Shown here piece by piece: positions 41,925-54,709 of a DNA stretch of 64,000 nt. The translations under genes were made by a program, and so were the position numbers. Positions within the stretch are counted from its first letter, which is position 1. Each line of letters begins with the position of its first letter. The notes below the pieces were generated by a model, which was not told where the DNA came from, searched no databases, and was given only the letters and a program-made list of their open reading frames with translations. Origin of the DNA: Aotearoamyces nothofagi (Eukaryota; Ascomycota; Leotiomycetes; Leotiales; Tympanidaceae); contig JADDTR010000014.1 in assembly GCA_015345905.1 (NCBI GenBank), positions 310,001 to 374,000 of the forward strand. The letters are read 5' to 3'.

Positions 41925-42870
41925 TAGCATCTTGGTCAGAAGGATGCTGTTTCGAAAATCCAAATATCAAAGCATAGAGAAGCTGTGGCATTCTCGTTTG
42001 TTCTGGGGGAAGGTGGGGTTGGAACAGGGCTGGGCAATCAGGGCAAGGGCAGGTGGCATTGAGGGATTACCGACGGATGGTATTGACGGATGGCTCAGGC
42101 CTGGCACAAACGGAGTTTGGATTTCTGCGGCATGACTCACTCCCTCTGGTCGGGTTCTTCCTCCTTGTTTTTTATTTATTTATATATATACGATTTAGAT
42201 TCTTGGAAGGGGGGGGTGGCGTAGCGTAGAAGCGAAGCCGTGCTATACCCCGAGCCCTGTTCTGTTCTGTTCTGTTCGCGAGGATACCCGGCATGGATTG
42301 GTGTAATTTTCATCCCACTGTACAGGGCTAGATCTGAGCGCGAGCCGGGGGAGGAGTTAATGATATCAGAAAGCATCTAGATCCGTCGCTCCCCCCCCCT
42401 CTTGCGGTCTCCTCCTTTTCTTTCTGGCGAGGAGCAGCGCGGGAGGCCGGCATGGTCGAGCAGTGCCTCGCCTGGCAAGCTCTCTGCGACATTGATGAAT
42501 CAGAGAGCTCTTCTCCAGACGCCGGAGTGGCGATGTGGGTTCAGCTTGCAGCACGTGACTTATAGACGAGATTCGCTGATTCGGAGGGATTCATTTGTAT
42601 GTACACTGTAGTATTTGGTAGAGACGTGGGCTGTGAGTAGGAGGGGAGGGGTCTGGAGCCTGGGGTACTACATATATATATGTATATACGTTCAATGATA
42701 ATCGCAAGGCCATGTACGAAGCAGATGAAGTCCATCGTCTGGCAGCCTGATGCTAGTTCTAGGTTCTAGTTCATTTCGTCCAGGTTACAGCTGGGGTTGA
42801 TTACAATAGGCATATAAGCCCTCCTCATCACGACACATGGCGAAAGAGAGAGGGTAGATGAATGTACAAG

Positions 42871-42900
42871 GACAGTACAGTACAGTACAGTACAATACAA
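42871..42900. repeat. CAGTA repeat tract
   Basis: Four or more ACAGT copies then ACAAT copies: the GTAC-type word family on the opposite strand sense. Confidence 0.85.
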
Positions 42901-43731
42901 TCGGCTCGCGAGCTAGCCCCATCATGATGTTTCTGTCTGGTCCTAGGGACGTTGCGACGATGACGCGTCTCGCGCAAGAGAGGGTGAGGAGGTATCCACT
43001 GTACGAAAAGGCCCTTTGTGGTTAACGATGAGAGGTGGCTGGGTAGTAGAGGTAGTGGGAATAGCAGAAACAGGATCGAGTAGGCTCTTTTCTTCACCCG
43101 CAAAGTGTCTCTGGGGGATGGACGGGCTTGAAATGGGTTGCGAGAGGGGGGAGGCAGAAAGGAGGGGAATGGGCTGATGCGTCAATTGGTGGTGTGGCGT
43201 CTGGGGTGCTGTGAGCAGACAGACAAGACAACATGGCTGTCCACGAAACGCAGTAGATGGCAGAACAATAATGCAACTCGAGCATGCGGTAGGTAGCATC
43301 CTCTTGCTGCTTGCCTCTGTCATCCTCTCCGAGCGAGCCGTATGTACTCGCTGTACAAGTACAGACAACAGACATCCGCTGTGCCCTTTGCACGAGCTCC
43401 AGGGCAGGCACAGGCATGTACAAAGGAGTCCGGCCTGTACGGTCTGGTCTGCGAGTTCGATGCTACAGGGACCTGCGAACAGAATTGGTCCATTGGCAAC
43501 ACCAAGCAAGCTATTGGCAGCTGGAACCACCAGCCTAGGAAACCCGATGAGAGCCGAGCTAACTAGCTTAGGTAGCTTATAGTGCTATCTACAACCTCGG
43601 GGGCCTAGGAGAACTGCCTAACTGGGCAAGCACCTCTGGATAAATGCCCAGGGTGCAGTATCTGGAAGATAAGGGGCGAGAGTGAGCGAGAGTGAAGGAG
43701 AGTGAAGGAGATGGCTACGTAGGTGGCTACG

Positions 43732-43780
43732 TAGGTGCCAATAGGTGCCAATAGGTGCCAATAGGTGCCAATAGGTGCCT
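43732..43780. repeat. 10-bp minisatellite (AGGTGCCAAT)
   Basis: Five perfect copies of AGGTGCCAAT. Confidence 0.9.
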
Positions 43781-44035
43781 GGAGATGCATGTAGATACGT
43801 ACCTTGGTTGCCTGTATTGCCTTTAGGGACGACGGACAAAGGCCAGACCCGATCCATGCCACAGAGCGAACCGACTGGGCCAGTGATCAACCCAGGTAGC
43901 TGCTGCAAGAGGTTGGCCGATGGAGATCAGTTGATCGAGACTGGCGGGTGGAGATTGATTGATAGACAGACCTCAGCAAGTAACCTTATGTCAGCCAAGG
44001 ACCGAAGGCAGACGGACCCTTCTTGCCTGACGCCG

Positions 44036-44130
44036 AGCAGTGAGTAGTGGTCAGTGAGTAGTGGTCAGTGAGTAGTGAGTGAGTAGTGAGTGAGTAGTGA
44101 GCAGTGAGCAGTCAGCAGTGAGCAGCCCAG
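44036..44130. repeat. AGTGAGTAGTGGTC minisatellite
   Basis: Irregular array of AGTGAGTAGTG, AGTGGTC and AGTGAGCAG units. Confidence 0.85.
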
Positions 44131-44431
44131 CCAGGTAGGTTGGGGGTGGGCATAAGACAGCTACCTACCTAGCCAGCTAGACAGCTACCTTGGCCGCCCT
44201 ACGGATAACGAAGAGCAAGAAGAAGAGGGAGAGAGGGAGAGAGGGAGAGCGAGATAAGATGAGAGAGGGGCCGACAGACAGGGCTGCAGCAGCGCTTGTG
44301 GCTGTGGTGGCTCGGGCCTGCGCTGCCCCGCCCGTCTTGCGTCTTGCGTCTTGCGTCTTCTCGCACCTTCCTTCTCCCTACGGGCCTACGGGCATCCTCT
44401 GGTTACAGCGCGGTGCAGCTTCTGTTGAGTA

Positions 44432-44503
44432 AGTACAGTTACAGTACAGTAGTGCAGTACAGTACAGCACAGTACATTACATTACTGCACCGTACCGTAC
44501 CGT
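44432..44503. repeat. GTAC-type repeat tract
   Basis: Dense ACAGTAC, GCAGTAC, ACATTAC and CGTAC words over about 70 bp. Confidence 0.8.
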
Positions 44504-45343
44504 CGCCCCTCCTTGCTGCCCCTGCCTGGCAGGGCTCAAGGCACTCTGCTCGGAGGCTATTTATGGAATCCCGGCCGCGCCAGCGCAGCCCGAGCAGGGC
44601 GCTTGGCCGCCTCGGGTAGCGCCTGGCGCAGGCCTTGGGTGGCCCCCCTGCCTGCCCGCGCTAGCTGACCCAAGGGGCGCGCCTGACGGGACTGCTGGGC
44701 TGGAGGTCCGCGCCGGCCCCGTGACCGAGAGGAGCCTCGGCTTGGCGGCCAGGTGACGAGTCGAGTCGAGTCGAGTCGAGTCACCGGATTGCTGGGTGCC
44801 CTGCCCTGTGCTTGTCCTGGGGAGGATTCGCGATTTCCTGCGCTGTGCAGTCCTGGCCCTCTCGTACTCGCCTTCCTGCCCGCTTCCAGCTGGCCCGCCG
44901 ACTGTCCTGCTCTGTCCTGCTCTGTCCTGCTCCAGTGCCTCGCTGGCCAAGAGTGCTGAGGTCGGTACGGTACAGCGGGTGCGCCACACCTCAGGCCCGT
45001 CGTCGCCTTTGCTCGCTTCGCGGAAGACCCGGGCCCAGGACGGCCTCACGTGACGCTGTGTGTACATACTGTACGTAACGCCGTCCCCCCCGTCCTGCCG
45101 CCGCTTCTGACGGGTCAGCCCTGCATTAGCCAGTCGCCAGTCGCCGCCCGGCTCCCCCGGCTGATGCGTCGGCGCGATGCATGTGCATGTGCATGTGCAT
45201 GTGCCTGTGCTTGGCCCGGCCTGCCACTGGCTGCTCCGTTCATGTCATTTCCTGTCATTTCCTCCAAAATCTCATCTCATTTACCGTGTGGGAGAGAGAC
45301 CTCGTGTTTGCGGGCCTGAGGTCTTTCCAATCTACAGATAGAG

Positions 45344-45380
45344 ATACTGTACTGTACAGTACTACTGTATACAGTGCAGT
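45344..45380. repeat. GTAC-type repeat tract
   Basis: TACTGTACTGTACAGTACTA-like palindromic run. Confidence 0.8.
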
Positions 45381-45896
45381 CCACACCACACATCCATGAC
45401 GGTCCTCCGTAATCGGTGCTGCTGGCTGTGCTTTTGCGCCGCTCTCCGTCCCCCACAGAGCAGCCTTTGCCGGTTTGCAAGGACACTGCGACGGGCGCAG
45501 CATTGCCTACGCCCTCACGAGCAACTGGCTGCCGTCATGCCCAGCACAGATCAGTCCTCGTATATTGTCCATCTTGCAATTACAGTACACTGAGTTGTCG
45601 TGGCGGGCGTGGCACGGCGCCGTGGCACGGACTTCGCTCGATCGGCCGGGCCAGTGCGCACAGATGCGATTGAGGGGAAGCCTGATCCCCTATTTCGCAT
45701 CCTTTGCTGTACCATCCATGTCCTGGCATTGCGCTTCCCCTTTTGTCCTGCTCACCACTGCAACCCCCATCCCTCCTCTGCCCATGTCCGCCAGCCCTCC
45801 TTCCGTCCGGCATCTCTCCTGCTCCCCATTGGAGCCATGTCCATAAGCCATATCCTAGGAGGGAAGGGTAATAGATACGAGGTAGTAGTTATGGGG

Positions 45897-45996
45897 TAAT
45901 GGCAATGGGCTGTAATGGCAATGGCTATAATGGCAATGGCTATAATGGCAATGGCTATAATGGCAATGGCTATAATGGCAATGGCTATAATGGCAA
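45897..45996. repeat. 15-bp minisatellite (AATGGCAATGGCTAT)
   Basis: About six copies of a 15-bp unit. Being a multiple of three, it makes a long but meaningless open frame on both strands. Confidence 0.9.
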
Positions 45997-46657
45997 GGAA
46001 CATGTGCGTGGAAAAGGGTGACCAGCTAAATCATACCTGCCTGGCTTTCGAGATTCCTTCACCACCTGGCTCGAGTCGACCACATAGCGTCGAGCGTCTC
46101 CTCGAAGACCAAGAAATGTAGCCACGCAAGTGTTATTAAATATCATGTATAGAACAATTGCAACTCCTTCGCAAACGCTCAAGAATGGAACCAAACTTAT
46201 CGCCAGAGATAGTGTGAATGTGTCTGTATTGTGCATGAGCTCAGAGCCGCCGCTCCTTCCTAACCGACCAGAGAGACCGTCGAGCCCACCAAGGAACATA
46301 TCCCCAACTAACCACCCAAAAGACGACTGCACATTAAAGCTCTGGTAGGCACATGGCATGGCATGACAGGGATCATCTTGCCGTCCCAATAGCCACCAGA
46401 TCAAGCAAGTACAAGAAGTTGACTGTGACCTTGACGTGTCTTGGCCATAAATTAGAGACAAATACTCTAGAGAGAAATACAGAACACCTTTTTAATCCCG
46501 CCCTCTTTTCCATCCAGCGACCGAGCCCCTCCTCCCATTTTGATTGACTCCAGCCACGTCTCAAACCACGTCGCCGTGGTGGGAGCCGATAGCCCAGAAA
46601 ATTGTCTAATGAAAGGAAATCCTGCTTCGTGACTCTGGCGGGAAAGGAATTCGCTGC

Positions 46658-47373
46658 TTACAAAATGTAAGCAGCGACACCGAGGAGACCAGCAAGGCCG
46701 GCAGCGGCACCAGCACCGGCACGGTTAGCGGCACCGGTGTAGGTGGATGAGGCGCTGGTGGTAACTGATCCAGTTCCGACGGCAGTGGTTGAAGCAGCAA
46801 CAACAGCGGCGGTAGTAGCCTCGACGGTGCTGTTAACATAGACTGCTGATGTGGCGACTGAGGCAGCGGTGGTAGCTGCGGCGACTGCGGAGGTGGTCAC
46901 GGAGCTACAAAGAAAAAGTCAGCCAGTGAAGATTTAACTGCGCGAAAACATGGATACCAGGTGCTGCAGTACACTACTGAAGAAACGGTCGAGAGCTTGG
47001 ACACGGTGCATGGGCAGTTGGTGATGGTGATAGTCTCAGACTGTAGACGGGAAAAAGTTAGCATTTATTCATCGTGGAGCTGAGATTGATCCAGCTATGA
47101 GAAGTATGTGCGCGTGCAGTGCATCCCATTAGATGGTTATATCAAAGCTAAACGCCAATTCTCATAGCCAGGTGGAAGTCATTCAAGCCACAGGAAGCTT
47201 ACCTCGGTGGCGGTGTAGGTGACACCGTTGTAGGTGAGCTCGGTGGAGGATGGGCAGACGGTGGTGTAGGCAGTGACAACATCGGTGACCCAGACGGCGG
47301 AGGCAGTGGCGTTGGAAGCGGCAGCAGCAGTGGCCACAAGGGCAGCAGTGAAAGCAGCGACGGTGAATTGCAT
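46658..47373 (-). CDS. Small secreted Ser/Thr/Ala-rich, probably GPI-anchored wall protein (CCG-6-like)
   Basis: Exons (minus) 47203-47373, 46958-47040 and 46658-46904 give 166 aa. The N-terminus MQFTVAAFTAALVATAAAAS is a clear signal peptide, cleaved near residue 19-20. The core has VWVTDVVTAYTTVCPSSTEL, TYNGVTYTATESETITITNC and PCTVSKLSTVSSVVYCSTC: a short domain with four to five cysteines that I associate with Neurospora clock-controlled CCG-6-like and similar wall proteins. The C-terminal half is a Thr/Ser/Ala/Val repeat likely to be O-mannosylated. It ends in a hydrophobic tail (GAGAAAGLAGLLGVAAYIL) after small residues, which fits a GPI attachment signal. Such proteins are usually abundant cell-wall constituents of unknown exact role. 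All three exons are needed: the first alone has neither second cysteine cluster nor tail. Confidence 0.87.
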
Positions 47374-47701
47374 CTTGACGGTTTGGTTTGGATGGTACTT
47401 AAAAAGTAATGGGTTGAAGGTGGTTGAGGTAGACGGAGGGATGGTTCTTTCAAACGGATATCTGTTGGTTGAACGAATGTAAGTGACTAAAAGTCAGATG
47501 TGTATGTATGAACGAAAGTGTGGGTAAAAGAAGGAAGAAGAAGAGGATGGTTGGGGATGGATCGGTCTTATACCGTGACAGGCCGGGGGGGGGCAGACAC
47601 TTAGTCAACAGCAGTAATGCCAGTAATGCCAGTGATGCCCGGTAATGCCCACAGGCAGGCGGCAGGCAGCCTAGAGACACATCAGGAGCTAGGGGGGTAT
47701 A

Positions 47702-47840
47702 CAGTGGGTGGCCAGAAGTATTCGACCTGGTACGTGCCCGCCGAACCAATAGATCATGTAGACAATAAGACTGAATAATTTTATTGGTGATGAAAAGTGG
47801 GCCTGCACGTACCAGGTCGAATACTTCTGGCCACCCACTG
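47702..47840 (+). mobile_element. Tc1/mariner-type MITE, copy 1
   Basis: 139-bp non-autonomous element with perfect 36-bp terminal inverted repeats beginning CAGTGGGTGGCCAGAAGTAT and a 67-bp core. It is flanked by TA on both sides (47,700-47,701 and 47,841-47,842), the target duplication made by Tc1/mariner/IS630 transposases. It has no coding capacity. Copy 2 (50,445-50,583) has the same sequence on the opposite strand with no difference that I can find, implying very recent movement. Assignment to the superfamily rests on the TA duplication and CAGTG ends; no transposase gene is in the window. The whole element could fold as one hairpin. Confidence 0.88.
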
Positions 47841-48430
47841 TACCTGTACCGGCTACCAAGGTGAGCCACAGGAGGCGACAGCAGGCTACAGACGGCTAGC
47901 CTGGGCAAGGCCGCGCGAGGGCCATTGGCGCAGGAGCCTGGCGGCCTAGCCTGTCCGGGCCGGATCCACGCCTGTTCGGGCAGGCCGGCTGGGAGAAGAG
48001 GCCAAAATAGCACAAACAGCACGAACAGCACGAATAGGAGGTATGGGTCGGGCAAGCGCAAGCGTGCCGTGCGTGCGTCGTGAATTTCTTTGCTCCGTAC
48101 TAAGGCAGGTACGGTGCCAGGCACCTCCGTCAACTGCGGCGCTAGGGGGCTAGCGTCTGCAGCCACCGTCCGAAGTCCCGCCTGCAAGCCCTGCACGCTG
48201 CGCTGCTCGTCCAGGCACCTTAGCCACCAGATTCGCGCTGCCCTAGTGCTGCTCGCGGCCTAGCAGGTGCGGTAGGCTGCCGGGCCTTGCTGGAGGCGGA
48301 GTAGTGCAGCCCTGAGGAGCCCGCTACGGTAGGTACGGCACTCGCTGCAGCCACACCACCCGCCCAGTGTCTTACAGTCCTGTGCGTACAGTACAGCGCA
48401 GTAGGTACTGTAGTTGCTGGCTGTGCCTCC

Positions 48431-48470
48431 GTTATCCGCCATCCGCCATCCGCCATCCGCCATCCGCCGT
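48431..48470. repeat. 7-bp minisatellite (CCGCCAT)
   Basis: About five copies of CCGCCAT. Confidence 0.85.
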
Positions 48471-49956
48471 GCGCTATCTGCCATCCGCGGATACGTACTC
48501 TCCATCCTCCTGCCTCCCTTATCTTGCAGTGCCTTGGATGCCTATAAGTACCCTGAGCTACGCCCTTGGGTCCTGGCCGAGTGCTGCTGCTGCAGTTCCA
48601 GGCGCTCAAGGTAGGTAGTCAACACCGCCTAAGGTCCCATAAGTACTCAGGTTTGCCGAGTCGCCCACCAGCTGGCATTCTTTGGTACGTGTATACCTAC
48701 CAGCCTTAGGTACCCTACTGCTGACTACAGTACTAATACATCCAGTAGTGTCGACGTGGGTAACTAGGTCGGCCCGGCTGTTCCTTTAGACGGCCAAATT
48801 ACTGCGACGGCCTCTGCCCTATCAGCGCAGGGCGAAAGGGCTGTCTCCTTGGCTTCCATTCCCAGATGGAACACACAAGCCTTCTACTGGCGCGCTGGAC
48901 TTCTGCCCTGGGTGTAGCAGCATCGTGCACTCCATACAAATGTGGCAATAATGCCTACCTTACGTGCCCGAGCTGCTGCTACGATGCTCCCAGGGCCTAA
49001 CCTAGGAGCAATGCCAAGTGCAGCAGGTAATTGCTGGTATGGGTGGGTGGGTTGGCGGGCAGGCTGGTAGACTCGACCTTCTTTTCTCTGTACCAAGTAT
49101 TCTGTAATCTGTACAGGTCCGCCAGCTGGAAATCCCGGCCATGCCCCGTTGTACACAGTACGGAGAACCTGGTGATGACAGCGTGACTATCCACCCAGCC
49201 GGCCAATAATAGCATCGCTAATTCTCTATACTGCAATCAGAAGTATGGCCCCTTCCAGAATGCAGGATTTGCAGGATTTGCAGGATTTGCCCGTCTCTCA
49301 GACTCCCAGGCGTGCCTGCCGTTCCGGGGTTTCCGTAGCAGAGAACGGTACCTAGTTCTTGCAGAGCATCCCGTTCTCTCATGCAGCTGCGCATGGCGTC
49401 TACGCAGTGTGCGTACCTAGCACGCACAACCGTATAGATACAGATACAGAGATAGATGGCAACTGTGCCAGCTTTTCATACGAGAGCCTGTTGACGCTGG
49501 GTCGCTGTTGTTGCGCGCGCGCCCCCCCTCCCCCAAGCGCACGCCCCAGGCCCCTGTGCGCCTTTCGCAGGAGTGTCAGGCAATATGACCTGCCTGGATC
49601 TGACAGGGATCGCCAGGAAAAGCCCACGCAAAGCCCCTCCCCCAAATTACAGCAAAAGCTTAGCTGGCGCTTCACCCAGTCTGGCTTGCTTCATTAGACA
49701 GCCGTGAGACAGCCATTTTGAGTACTGCATTGGCAGCAGCTGGTAGGTGGTTGGCAGATGGCTGATGGCAGATGGCTGATGGCTGATGGCACTTGGCACA
49801 CAGTGCACTTGGGGGCTTGGGGCTTGGGGCTTGGTCCTGTGGTTGGGACTGCAACCGCTTCAAGGGAGATGATGGTGACACAGGAGAGTACAGCATGGTA
49901 CAGTCACAGTTCAGGAGACAGCAACTGTCTCTCGGTAGGTAGGTGCTTGGGTGCGG

Positions 49957-49980
49957 AGTACAGTACAGTACTTACAGTAC
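49957..49980. repeat. GTAC-type repeat tract
   Basis: Repeated GTACA/CAGTA words, ACAGTACAGTACTTACAGTA. Confidence 0.75.
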
Positions 49981-50444
49981 GCGCACTGTGCAGTATATAA
50001 ATAACGGAACTAGCCCTGGAGGAGCCCTATGCCAAGTCGCCAACACCAAGCATGGCCGATAAAGAATTCGTGATGAGATCTCCCCAGCTAGGTAGATGCA
50101 CTGCAGTGCTACTTGCATGTGCGTACGTACTGCAGAACGAGGCAAGTTACTCACCGTACAGTACTGTAGATACTGATGATACCGTGGTCTGTGTCGCAGC
50201 GGGCAGACTCGACGGAGCACCCGTCCAGATGGATGCAAAACCCCAGGGCACCCCAGCCCCGGTTCCCTTTCATTTGGTCTCATGCAAATCTCGCATACGT
50301 GCATACGAGTACCAAGATATGGTCCTGTACTGCGTCTACAGTACTGTACTGTGCTCCGTGCTGTGCTGTGCTGTAACTCTTCCGCGGCCTGGCCAGCCAA
50401 GTGCCAGCGTACCGCCAGCTAAGGTAAGGTATGCAGAACACTTA

Positions 50445-50583
50445 CAGTGGGTGGCCAGAAGTATTCGACCTGGTACGTGCAGGCCCACTTTTCATCACCA
50501 ATAAAATTATTCAGTCTTATTGTCTACATGATCTATTGGTTCGGCGGGCACGTACCAGGTCGAATACTTCTGGCCACCCACTG
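50445..50583 (-). mobile_element. Tc1/mariner-type MITE, copy 2
   Basis: Same 139-bp element as at 47,702-47,840 but in inverted orientation, with 36-bp terminal repeats, 67-bp core and flanking TA at 50,443-50,444 and 50,584-50,585. Read on the minus strand it is identical to copy 1 over its full length. The two copies bracket 2.6 kb, so recombination between them would invert that segment. Confidence 0.88.
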
Positions 50584-52453
50584 TACGTACTGATTCCGCG
50601 TTCCCCAGCGTATCCAGGGGCTTGCTTACTCGGGAGCCCCCTAAGGTGCTTGACGGTGTTGTACTATAGCCCTCTCTGTACACTGCGTTCCTATGCTACG
50701 GTAGTACACGGCGATTAATCAGTCTTCGCTCCCCTCGAGTCGCCCGCTGGACCCGCCCGAGGAAGGTTCTTACAACCCTACTACACCCGCTTCAGTTCTG
50801 ATCCAAAGTGCAGACCCCAGCAGCTCTTCCACAACACGGTGAAGCCTGACATCATACGCCGAGTCGAGCAGAAAAATCAAATTGCCCGAGATTGTAGCAG
50901 CTTCCAGAATTGTCGCAGTTTGGCGCCTTGCAAGCCAGAATCCCGCCGAGTCGCTGAGTCGTTCGCTGTGCGTGCCCACGGTACCCTAATTTCGGTCCAC
51001 TGTGTGCCGGGTAACCAGTGGCCAGCCCCATGGCTAAGAATAGATTGCTCGGCCCTGCCACTGTGCGTGCTGGGTGGAGATGCGGCTCATTCGCGTCTTG
51101 GTCCGAATCAGCATGTCTGATGTATGTACTGTATCTGAAGTCAGGGTATATAAACAATATTCGTCATCATCACGGCACAGTAGTAGTAATAATAATAATA
51201 ATAAACATATCGAGAGTACCTGCGCAAGCGTGTGCAGGCCACACTTTCACAGCTCTGTAGACATTTCTTTCTGCTGCAGCAATCCTCTTCGGCCAGCCGT
51301 TTGCTAGGGGGTCGCAACCCTGCAGCCCCGCAGGGCTGTTAATGGCCGAGGAATGTAGCCGTTGATCTTTGATCTTTGATCTTGTGATCTGGGCTTGCAT
51401 TCCACGGGAACCGCCACTCCGCCGACAAGGTGATCCATCCCGACTGCTTCATTCGCTATCGTCGCGCGGCTTGGCAACAGTGAGAACTTGCGGCGGCTGC
51501 TGTTTTATGTAAGCACCCAAGGTACGTGACGAGGTATGGGCGACCCTCCGCTCGGTAGGTCGAGTGGCAAGTGAGCTGCATACTGGAGCGGGCACAGACA
51601 TACTGTTCTTCCTTCGCTGTTAGTCACGTGACATCGCTATGGCTGGCCTCGCCGACTCGCAGCACTACTTTACCAAGGTATCAATGCATTGTTACCGTCT
51701 GTACTCCGTCCGTATTCGAGTGACCCATCCCAGAGTGGCCGGCTGGCCTCTCCCCTTCTCGTTCGCAGTACTTGTAGGCACTGTTACTGCCCAAGTACCA
51801 GTACGTATTCCCTGGCGGAGTCCTCTTTGCCGAATGCCGCCTTACCGAGCTCGAACGGAATGCGGGGGAATGGGAACGCCAACGTCGCTCCAGCTTCCAC
51901 TGCACCTCCTCGCTCCCGCTGAAGAAGCTTGGAGGTGTGGTGAACGCATGCATAGAGTACTGCACATACAGCACATATGGCATAGATACTCGGGTACATG
52001 CGCGCACAACACTGGAGGTTATCAAGTCCGTTTCTCCGGTCCACGAGCCGTGGCTAAAATCCTAGGCCTCACCTGCAGTGCCGTGAGTGCTGCATATATC
52101 TGTTAAATGCGTGACTACATCTAATAGCCATCTTGCAAGTTTCTTCGGCATACTTGTCTGTGTTGGCAAAGAGGTGCTATCAATAGATGTCGATATCTCT
52201 TCAATCCCCTCACTTGTATGTCTAAAAAACAACTGCAATTACTTGCTATTTCCCGCCATTAAAACGACCTGTTCAACGAATTGCAGGTGCTCGCTGTTGA
52301 GAACAACTGCTGCAATATTCGAAAGAAGGAGTAGCCACAAGTACTATCTAGCACTCTTTATCAAGAGCTTTGGCTGTAAGCGTAGAGTTGATAATCCGTC
52401 TGATGCTCGATAACTAACATTCAGTTGTCGATACAGCTCGAAACAGTCTAACA

Positions 52454-54709
52454 ATGGCCACCCATCCACAAGACGAAGTCTATCGTCGCTCTATTACCGA
52501 TCCCGAGTCATTCTGGGCAGATCAAGCTTCCCACCTCTACTGGCACAAGAATCCATCGAAAGCACTTACAAAGACCACAAAGGTACTGAAGAGTGGGGTT
52601 TCCCATGGCCACTGGGAATGGTTTGCAGGCGGCGAGATATCAACCTGCTACAACTGCGTGGATAGGCATGTGGCTTCTGGCAATGGAGACTCAACAGCTA
52701 TCTTTTGGGATAGTCCAGTGACGGCAAGTAAAGAGAGGTACACGTATAAACAGCTGCTTAAGGAAGTAGAAATCTTTGCTGGCGTTCTCAGAGAGGAGGG
52801 TGTGAAAAGGGGGGATGTAGTTTTAATATACAGTTAGTATAGCACATCCATAAACATATACCCACGCTAACGGTAATAGTGCCAATGATTCCAGCTGCAT
52901 TGATTGCGATGCTTGCTATCTCTCGACTTGGGGCAATTCATACCGTTGTATTCGGAGGCTTTGCGTCTAAATCACTAGCACAACGCATCGAAGCATCAAA
53001 GCCAGTTATCATTCTTACCGCATCATGTGGAATCGATGGTACAAAGCCTGCTGTAAGCTACCAGCCCTATATTCGACAAGCAATTGGTCGTTCTTCTTTC
53101 AAACCCCCGAAGACCATAATCTGGCAACGTGACCAGCTGCGGTGGGATCCAGTAAACAAAGAAGCTGGAGAGCGCAATTGGCAACGACTAGTCAAGAGCG
53201 CAAGAGATCGCGGTTTGAAAGCAGCATGTGTTCCGGTCAAAGCCAGCGATGGCGTATATATCATTTATACATCCGGTACAACTGGGTCGCCGAAAGGTGT
53301 ACTCCGGGAGGCTGGTGGGCACGCAGTGGGCTTGCATTTTTCAATAAACTATCTCTTCGGCATACACGGGCCTGGCGATGTGATGTTTTGTGCGTCGGAT
53401 ATTGGATGGGTGGTTGGGCATAGCTACATCCTATATGCACCTCTTTTGACCGGTGCAGCAACTGTGTTGTACGAGGGTAAACCAGTCGGAACACCAAATG
53501 CAGGCACATTCTGGCGGATCATAGAGGAATACAGGGTAGGTTATTTCCTATTCGTTGAGAAACTAAATGGCTAACATTATTATCGTAGGTGAACACCCTA
53601 TCAACAGCACCTACAGCTCTACGAGCTATTCGACGTGACGATCCGGCAAATAAACTCTTCTCCGAGATAGGTGAAAGGGGCGGCCTAAGGAGCCTCAAGG
53701 CCCTATTTTTAGCTGGTGAGAGATCTGAACCTAGTATCGTAACCATGTATCAAGATCTATTGAAGAAGTACGGAGGTGGGGGTGCCGATGTCATCGATAA
53801 TTGGTGGTCCTCTGAGTCTGGATCCCCCATTTCCGGGATTGCGCTTGTCCCGTATGCAGGCAAAGACCGCAAGACAAAGGTGTTGACGGCGCCCTTGAAA
53901 GTCAAGCCTGGGAGCGCAGGTAAGGCTATGCCTGGGTTCGACGTACGGGTCGTGAATGATGAAGGCATTGAGGTGGAGAAGGGCAAGATGGGGAATATCG
54001 TCCTAGCGATTCCTCTTGCTCCTACAGCCTTTCGTACCCTATGGGGAGATGAAGAGCGGTTCTATAAGGGTTATATGAGACGGTTCGAGGGCAAATGGAT
54101 TGATACTGGCGATGCTGGTATGATTGATCTAGAAGGATACATCCACGTGATGTCGAGATCTGACGACATCATCAACGTTGCAGCACACCGTTTTAGCACT
54201 GGTAAGCCAAGATTGGTCTCTATCGGCCATTCTAGTGAGCCAGAAACTGACGCATGACCTTAGGCTCCATCGAACAAGCCATCTCTTCACACCCGGCAAT
54301 TACCGAATGCTGTGTCGTCGGCATTCCCGATTCTCTCAAAGGCCACTTACCCTTCGCTTTCGTCACTCTATCAACTCCCGATCACCCAGAATCTGCAATC
54401 CCATCCGACCAGCTAACCGCCGAGGTACAGAAACTCGTCCGCACGCAGATCGGCGCGATTGCATCTCTTGGTGGCATAATCCATGGAAAGCGTATAATCC
54501 CCAAGACGCGATCGGGCAAGACGCTCAGGCGCGTGCTACGAGAGTTGTTGGAGAACGCTGTGCACGGGGATTTTGATAAGGAGGTGCAGGTCCCGGCTAC
54601 CGTGGAGGATGCTAGCGTTGTCGAGGTTGCGAGGGAGAAGATCGCCGAGTATTTCAAAGAGAAAGGCGGCGACTTGCACAAGGCTACCGAGACTAGGTCA
54701 AAGCTGTAG
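52454..54709 (+). CDS. Acetyl/propionyl-CoA synthetase-like AMP-forming enzyme with peroxisomal SKL end
   Basis: Activates a short-chain carboxylic acid to its CoA ester via the acyl-AMP. Exons 52454-52832, 52880-53535, 53589-54201 and 54264-54709 give 697 aa. The N-terminal segment SITDPESFWADQASHLYWHK is typical of the acetyl-CoA synthetase/ACSS3 subgroup. The AMP-binding motif YTSGTTGSPKG is at 256-266, followed by DVMFCASDIGWVVGHSY. IDNWWSSESGSP replaces the TDNWWQTETG of relatives. WIDTGDAG and RSDDIINVAAHRFSTG follow, and the catalytic lysine is Lys635 in PKTRSGKTLRR. The substrate is probably propionate or another short acid (family inference). The last three residues are SKL, a perfect type 1 peroxisomal targeting signal, so a peroxisomal site of action is likely. 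All four exons stay in frame. Confidence 0.92.

Follow-up and report, generated by a model that had tools for sequence, protein, structure and literature searches.

The window, a 64,000-nucleotide stretch of DNA corresponding to C14:310001-374000 in a genome of 25,475,336 bases and 55 contigs, carries two short inverted-repeat elements 2.6 kb apart and in opposite orientation. The pair raises three questions: whether the copies are independent insertions of a miniature inverted-repeat element (MITE) or a single insertion and its local duplicate, which enzyme moved them, and whether the family is still moving.

Structure of the element pair

For structural characterization of the pair, direct sequence comparison was used. 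An initial annotation, made from the letters alone, had described identical 139-bp elements with perfect 36-bp terminal inverted repeats (TIRs), a 67-bp core and TA at both edges, and each of these features was reproduced. After reverse-complementing one copy, 139 of 139 bases were identical. The first 36 bases of the element are the exact reverse complement of the last 36, and each copy is bordered by a TA pair of its own (Table 1).

Table 1. Positions in the window of the two MITE copies, their parts and the flanking TA dinucleotides
Feature	Position	Strand	Basis or remark
MITE copy 1, 139 bp	47702..47840	+	identical to copy 2 and C6:445284-445422
Left TIR, copy 1, 36 bp	47702..47737	+	perfect inverted match to 47805-47840; 36/36 to right end of C3 Tc1-like element
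Core, copy 1, 67 bp, non-coding	47738..47804	+	genome search
Right TIR, copy 1, 36 bp	47805..47840	-	inverted match to left TIR
TA target duplication, left of copy 1	47700..47701	.	sequence read
TA target duplication, right of copy 1	47841..47842	.	sequence read
MITE copy 2, 139 bp, opposite orientation	50445..50583	-	reverse complement identical to copy 1
TIR, copy 2, low-coordinate end, 36 bp	50445..50480	+	inverted-repeat comparison
TIR, copy 2, high-coordinate end, 36 bp	50548..50583	-	inverted-repeat comparison
TA target duplication, low side of copy 2	50443..50444	.	sequence read
TA target duplication, high side of copy 2	50584..50585	.	sequence read

When the 60-base flanks of the two copies were compared, 13/60 and 21/60 positions agreed, which is near chance. 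As the flanks are unrelated beyond the TA, the pair represents separate insertions rather than a single segment that was duplicated. The proximity and identity of the copies would also be expected had one insertion undergone a local inverted duplication, the identity then being that of a duplicate, but the unrelated flanks, the separate TA pairs and the presence of a third identical copy on another contig leave this explanation with very little probability. A composite transposon made up of both copies and the DNA between them was likewise rejected, because the 2604-bp spacer occurs only once in the genome; apart from itself it matched five pieces of 37–54 bp.

The two copies lie in a stretch of ∼11 kb (41925-52842) in which no gene has yet been recognised; a long open frame extends to 41924 on one side, and on the other an AMP-binding enzyme occupies the DNA from 52843. 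Scans of the window with Rfam and for tRNAs gave no match. A crude hydrophobicity scan for secreted-protein genes, covering 45.5–52.8 kb, returned four candidate frames; the one at 50073 (143 aa) extends into MITE copy 2.

In the minimum-energy fold of the MITE as RNA, 36 pairs are terminal and 17 are inner (−89 kcal/mol, z −14.1 relative to 200 shuffles); as DNA, the corresponding values were −51.7 kcal/mol and z −13.5. With 106 of 139 bases paired, the "near-complete hairpin folding" first ascribed to the element is a fair description, though not an exact one. A role as a source of small RNAs, which the initial annotation put forward on the strength of this folding, would be a candidate function.

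Copies elsewhere in the genome

A DNA search of the genome identified at least six full copies of the MITE on five contigs, together with one half copy on C5. In addition to the window pair, full copies were found on C6 (identical), C17 (one base deleted), C16 (4 changes) and C43 (5 changes), such that pairwise differences among the six range from 0 to 6 and three copies are identical. TA is present at both edges of all six, for which the probability is ∼2e-16 with random flanks at the TA frequency of the window. Only two copies with shared flanking sequence, the outcome that had been named in advance as pointing to local duplication, is excluded by this number of copies and by their unrelated flanks. 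Flanks of 1.5 kb were compared among all copies and remnants and, the overlap between the window copies aside, gave one match, of 42 bp at 83%, between the right flank of the C6 copy and DNA ∼1.1 kb to the right of a Tc1-like element on C3. The element is therefore short and non-coding, with TIRs, dispersed copies and unrelated flanks, as is characteristic of a MITE, and at 139 bp it is too short for a transposase gene.

The TIR was then used as a search term in its own right. A 22-base pattern, allowing up to 3 mismatches, gave 17 matches across the whole genome and 0 for the reversed pattern used as control, so the matches are not attributable to chance. Twelve of them are the ends of the six full copies and two are the ends of the C3 element, with one more each on C5, C23 and C17. 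Outside the full copies, the genome search recovered the 67-bp core only as a partial match in the C5 half copy.

The half copy (C5:456190-456261) corresponds to MITE positions 1–72 at 100% and is preceded on its left by TG in place of TA. It ends in GACTG followed by TA, which resembles the true end, CACTG followed by TA, and it is perhaps the product of an aberrant one-ended event. The C17 MITE is situated inside a gap of ∼550 bp (C17:340770-341322) between two divergently oriented open frames and could for this reason sit between two promoters.

Insertion at TA

To look for empty sites, we joined the flanks at each of seven sites (those of the six MITE copies plus the C3 element) and queried the genome with them. 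Of 18 matches, 14 were the sites themselves, and the remaining 4 were all relatives of the C6 site that crossed its junction. These four sequences (C9, C20 twice and C26) run through the insertion point without a MITE and are 74–78% alike to the joined C6 site, or 72–88% over shorter stretches. In three of the four (C20 twice and C26), a single TA occupies the insertion point, showing that the C6 MITE entered this repeat at TA and duplicated it; the C9 relative has TG in place of TA and one extra base beside it. This search gave no empty-site relative for the other six sites (five MITE copies and the C3 element); the empty TA sites that the initial annotation proposed to look for were seen for the C6 copy only. 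The C6, C9, C20 and C26 repeats constitute a dispersed family, one member of which took the C6 MITE.

Because three copies are identical, movement in the recent past is likely. Near-identical short dispersed repeats can be homogenised, and gene conversion among old copies might have produced the same identity; moreover, any dating from 139 bp is weak. Against this, the copies fall into two groups that retain 4 fixed differences, so homogenisation has not been general, and conversion leaves the insertion at the C6 site unexplained. We consider gene conversion an improbable source of the identity and favor recent movement.

A Tc1-like relative with the same ends

The C3 element identified through the TIR search (C3:347816-349073) is a 1258-bp Tc1-like element with TA at both edges, and its right end matches the MITE TIR at 36 of 36 bases. 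Its minus strand contains a frame of ∼342 codons with 20 internal stops (1 TGA, 11 TAG and 8 TAA). Within this frame is the stretch SPNLNPIENL, typical of Tc1 transposases. The frame matches Pfam DDE_3 weakly (E 0.0011; 19.3 bits, below the cut-off of 28.6) and, at 27% identity (E 1.8e-27), a Tc1-like frame on C1 that is open. A full-length Tc1/mariner element with the same 36-bp ends, proposed at the outset as the partner to search for, was thus found, but in a form whose frame is no longer intact.

When the C3 frame was used as a protein query, nine matches were obtained: the frame itself, C1:1116174 (the 27% match) and seven others (C50, C17, C7:102022, C8, C26, C5 and C10), each of which has at least one stop within the matched stretch. 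No match to the TIR pattern was found beside the transposase matches at C1:1116174, C50, C7:102022 or C8. At the DNA level, remnants of the C3 element were detected on C17 (an end and ∼400 bp at 71%), C23 (an end, 69–114 bp) and C7 (an end and ∼190 bp at 72%), along with an internal fragment, C1:695682-695887, with no recognisable ends within the 2.5 kb inspected. Searches of the genome that are blind to introns revealed no intact transposase with MITE-type ends, and the partner is accordingly identified by its ends alone. Judged on these shared ends, the C3 element is likely to be the parent of the MITE.

A DDE_3 family search of the genome gave 13 matches, 9 of them above cut-off. Another DDE_3 transposase frame, interrupted by one stop (C3:343930-344964), lies ∼3 kb from the C3 Tc1-like element; the match within it, C3:344068, was rejected as parent since no MITE-type end is nearby. 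The match at C6:739284-739547, in a 308-aa open frame, was not matched by the C3 protein and has no TIR-pattern match nearby.

The open frame at C1:1116174 was also rejected as parent because its ends differ from the MITE TIR. It belongs to a second Tc1-like family, of which the C1 member (C1:1116025-1117389) has an open 363-aa frame and a C8 member (C8:141071-142447; 84% identity) shows strong RIP-type damage. MITEs are known in general to be moved by partners with merely similar ends, and this intact transposase, with 27% identity to that of the C3 element, might cross-mobilise the MITE, in which case the family could still be active. Its end, however, has 16 of 26 positions in common with the MITE TIR, compared with 36 of 36 for the C3 element, and such cross-mobilisation appears unlikely. 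The family of the C3 element is thus preferred as the source of the enzyme.

RIP-type mutation in the long elements and the MITE

The left and right ends of the C3 element were compared over 69 positions, of which 12 differ, all by C-to-T or G-to-A changes. Seven of these are in CpG, 4 in CpA and 1 in CpC, so that CpA does not lead in this small sample. Comparison of the remnants with the C3 element gave, for C17, 49 C-to-T/G-to-A changes (25 in CpA), 15 in the reverse direction and 16 transversions and, for C23, 29 C-to-T/G-to-A changes versus 7 reverse; the AT-rich C7 remnant (25% GC) showed no bias (16 versus 21). The C3 element has a TpA/ApT ratio of 1.22 and a (CpA+TpG)/(ApC+GpT) ratio of 0.88, where the window has 0.82 and 1.27; the reference values for RIP given in PMC4188875 are >0.89 and <1.03, respectively. 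The only full-length relative found has decayed by RIP-type mutation.

The second Tc1-like family served as an internal control. Its 1.36-kb pair, open on C1 and with 17 stops in the matched stretch on C8, differs by 204 substitutions, and 187 of these are C-to-T or G-to-A in the direction C1 to C8 (92 in CpA). DNA-methylase domain matches were found at four places in the genome, in six pieces, and may include RID.

The MITE copies themselves carry little of this kind of change. One private TpG-to-TpA change was seen, in C43, and the four positions that separate the two copy groups include three transitions, two of them in CpA; the RIP indices of the element, 0.90 and 1.10, have little meaning for 139 bp. 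RIP has been described in PMC4188875 for duplications of >400 bp. The suggestion that the MITE is too short to be hit fits these values and the damage to the 1.36-kb control pair. Escape from RIP through shortness is unproven, however: a spread of the MITE later than the last RIP episode would fit its scant damage equally.

Mechanism and activity

Taken from the ends and insertion sites, the element is with high confidence a mimp-like MITE, i.e. a short, non-coding element with impala/Tc1-type ends that would have been mobilised in trans and inserted at TA. In the proposed mechanism, a Tc1-type transposase acting in trans would bind the 36-bp ends, excise the MITE and insert it at a TA site, with duplication of the TA. 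The enzyme was probably a then-intact transposase of the C3 element's family. Movement would have been fairly recent, given the three identical copies, and would have ended when RIP destroyed the source of enzyme in this lineage; the window pair would be two separate insertions, possibly the outcome of a local hop.

Past movement in trans is well supported: insertion at TA, a Tc1-type relative sharing the ends and the empty C6 site support the Tc1/mariner mobilisation put forward in the initial annotation. Its further suggestion of a family "moving now or very recently" probably holds for the recent past. Present activity is unsupported, as the searches revealed no enzyme that is both intact and flanked by such ends, and the only full-length relative found has 20 stops.

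Comparison with mimp, impala and other fungal MITEs

The 67-bp core of the MITE does not occur in the C3 element, and mimp cores likewise differ from impala. To identify further ends of this type, a degenerate 23-base pattern of the mimp motif was searched with up to 3 mismatches, together with a control. The 26 matches (6 in the control) comprise 17 known ends, 1 C7 remnant, 4 CAGTGGGATGACA ends and 4 that are chance-like. The CAGTGGGATGACA(G/A)AAGT ends, at C10:338600, C5:1163003, C26:342906 and C6:1010636, are close to mimp-type ends, and those on C10, C5 and C26 adjoin Tc1-like transposase matches.

The mimps of Fusarium oxysporum and its relatives are described as short non-coding MITEs with Tc1/impala-like ends that insert at TA (PMC5579170), and the present element resembles them in all of these respects. 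Its TIR fits 15 of the 16 positions in the mimp motif published for Fusarium (PMC5579170). The length given for mimps is 180–220 bp (PMC5579170) or 200–220 bp (PMC3599309), which the 139-bp element does not reach; since both the strict motif and the usual 180–220 bp are departed from, the element is termed mimp-like and not mimp. The Fol4287 genome is reported to contain many mimps and impala copies without a full-length transposase (PMC3599309, Schmidt et al. 2013), and here, too, the only full-length relative found with the MITE is a broken one. Unlike Fol4287, in which no two mimps are reported to be identical (PMC3599309), three identical copies are present.

The impala element of F. oxysporum is described as encoding 340 aa, with 37-bp TIRs, insertion at TA and low copy number (PMC5579170). 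The C3 element may be comparable in its ∼342 codons, 36-bp shared end, TA insertion and low copy number, and differs in that the only full-length copy found has its frame broken by internal stops. It may be called impala-type by TIR motif, frame length and layout. The epichloae offer a further parallel: their MITEs are reported to occupy intergenic regions in genomes whose repeats carry RIP mutations, and an autonomous parent, Waru, is named for one of them (PMC3585121).

The mimp survey by van Dam and Rep, as described, covered Fusarium genomes only, 83 of F. oxysporum and 52 others (PMC5579170). Among the matches listed in our literature search on mimp, the mimp-centred studies all concern Fusarium, with mimp mentioned in one paper on rice Stowaway and one on coral MITEs; a search uniting miniature inverted-repeat, Tc1, impala, RIP and fungi returned no publication from the collection searched. 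At 25.5 Mb the present genome would be small for a Fusarium, and its assembly may lack some sequence.

The system is ordinary in kind and involves no new mechanism. Its broadest reading, which we offer tentatively as plausible but short of probable, is that of a mimp/impala system in a probably non-Fusarium fungus, in which RIP would have destroyed the long parents and the 139-bp MITE, shorter than RIP sees, would have outlived its enzyme source. What the locus provides is a closely traced MITE and likely parent, with ends, target site, empty-site comparison and a RIP-decayed relative in one genome. The long Tc1-type repeats are RIP-damaged and the 139-bp derivative hardly so, a natural illustration of a MITE outlasting its damaged relative, and mimp-like elements may be worth seeking more widely.
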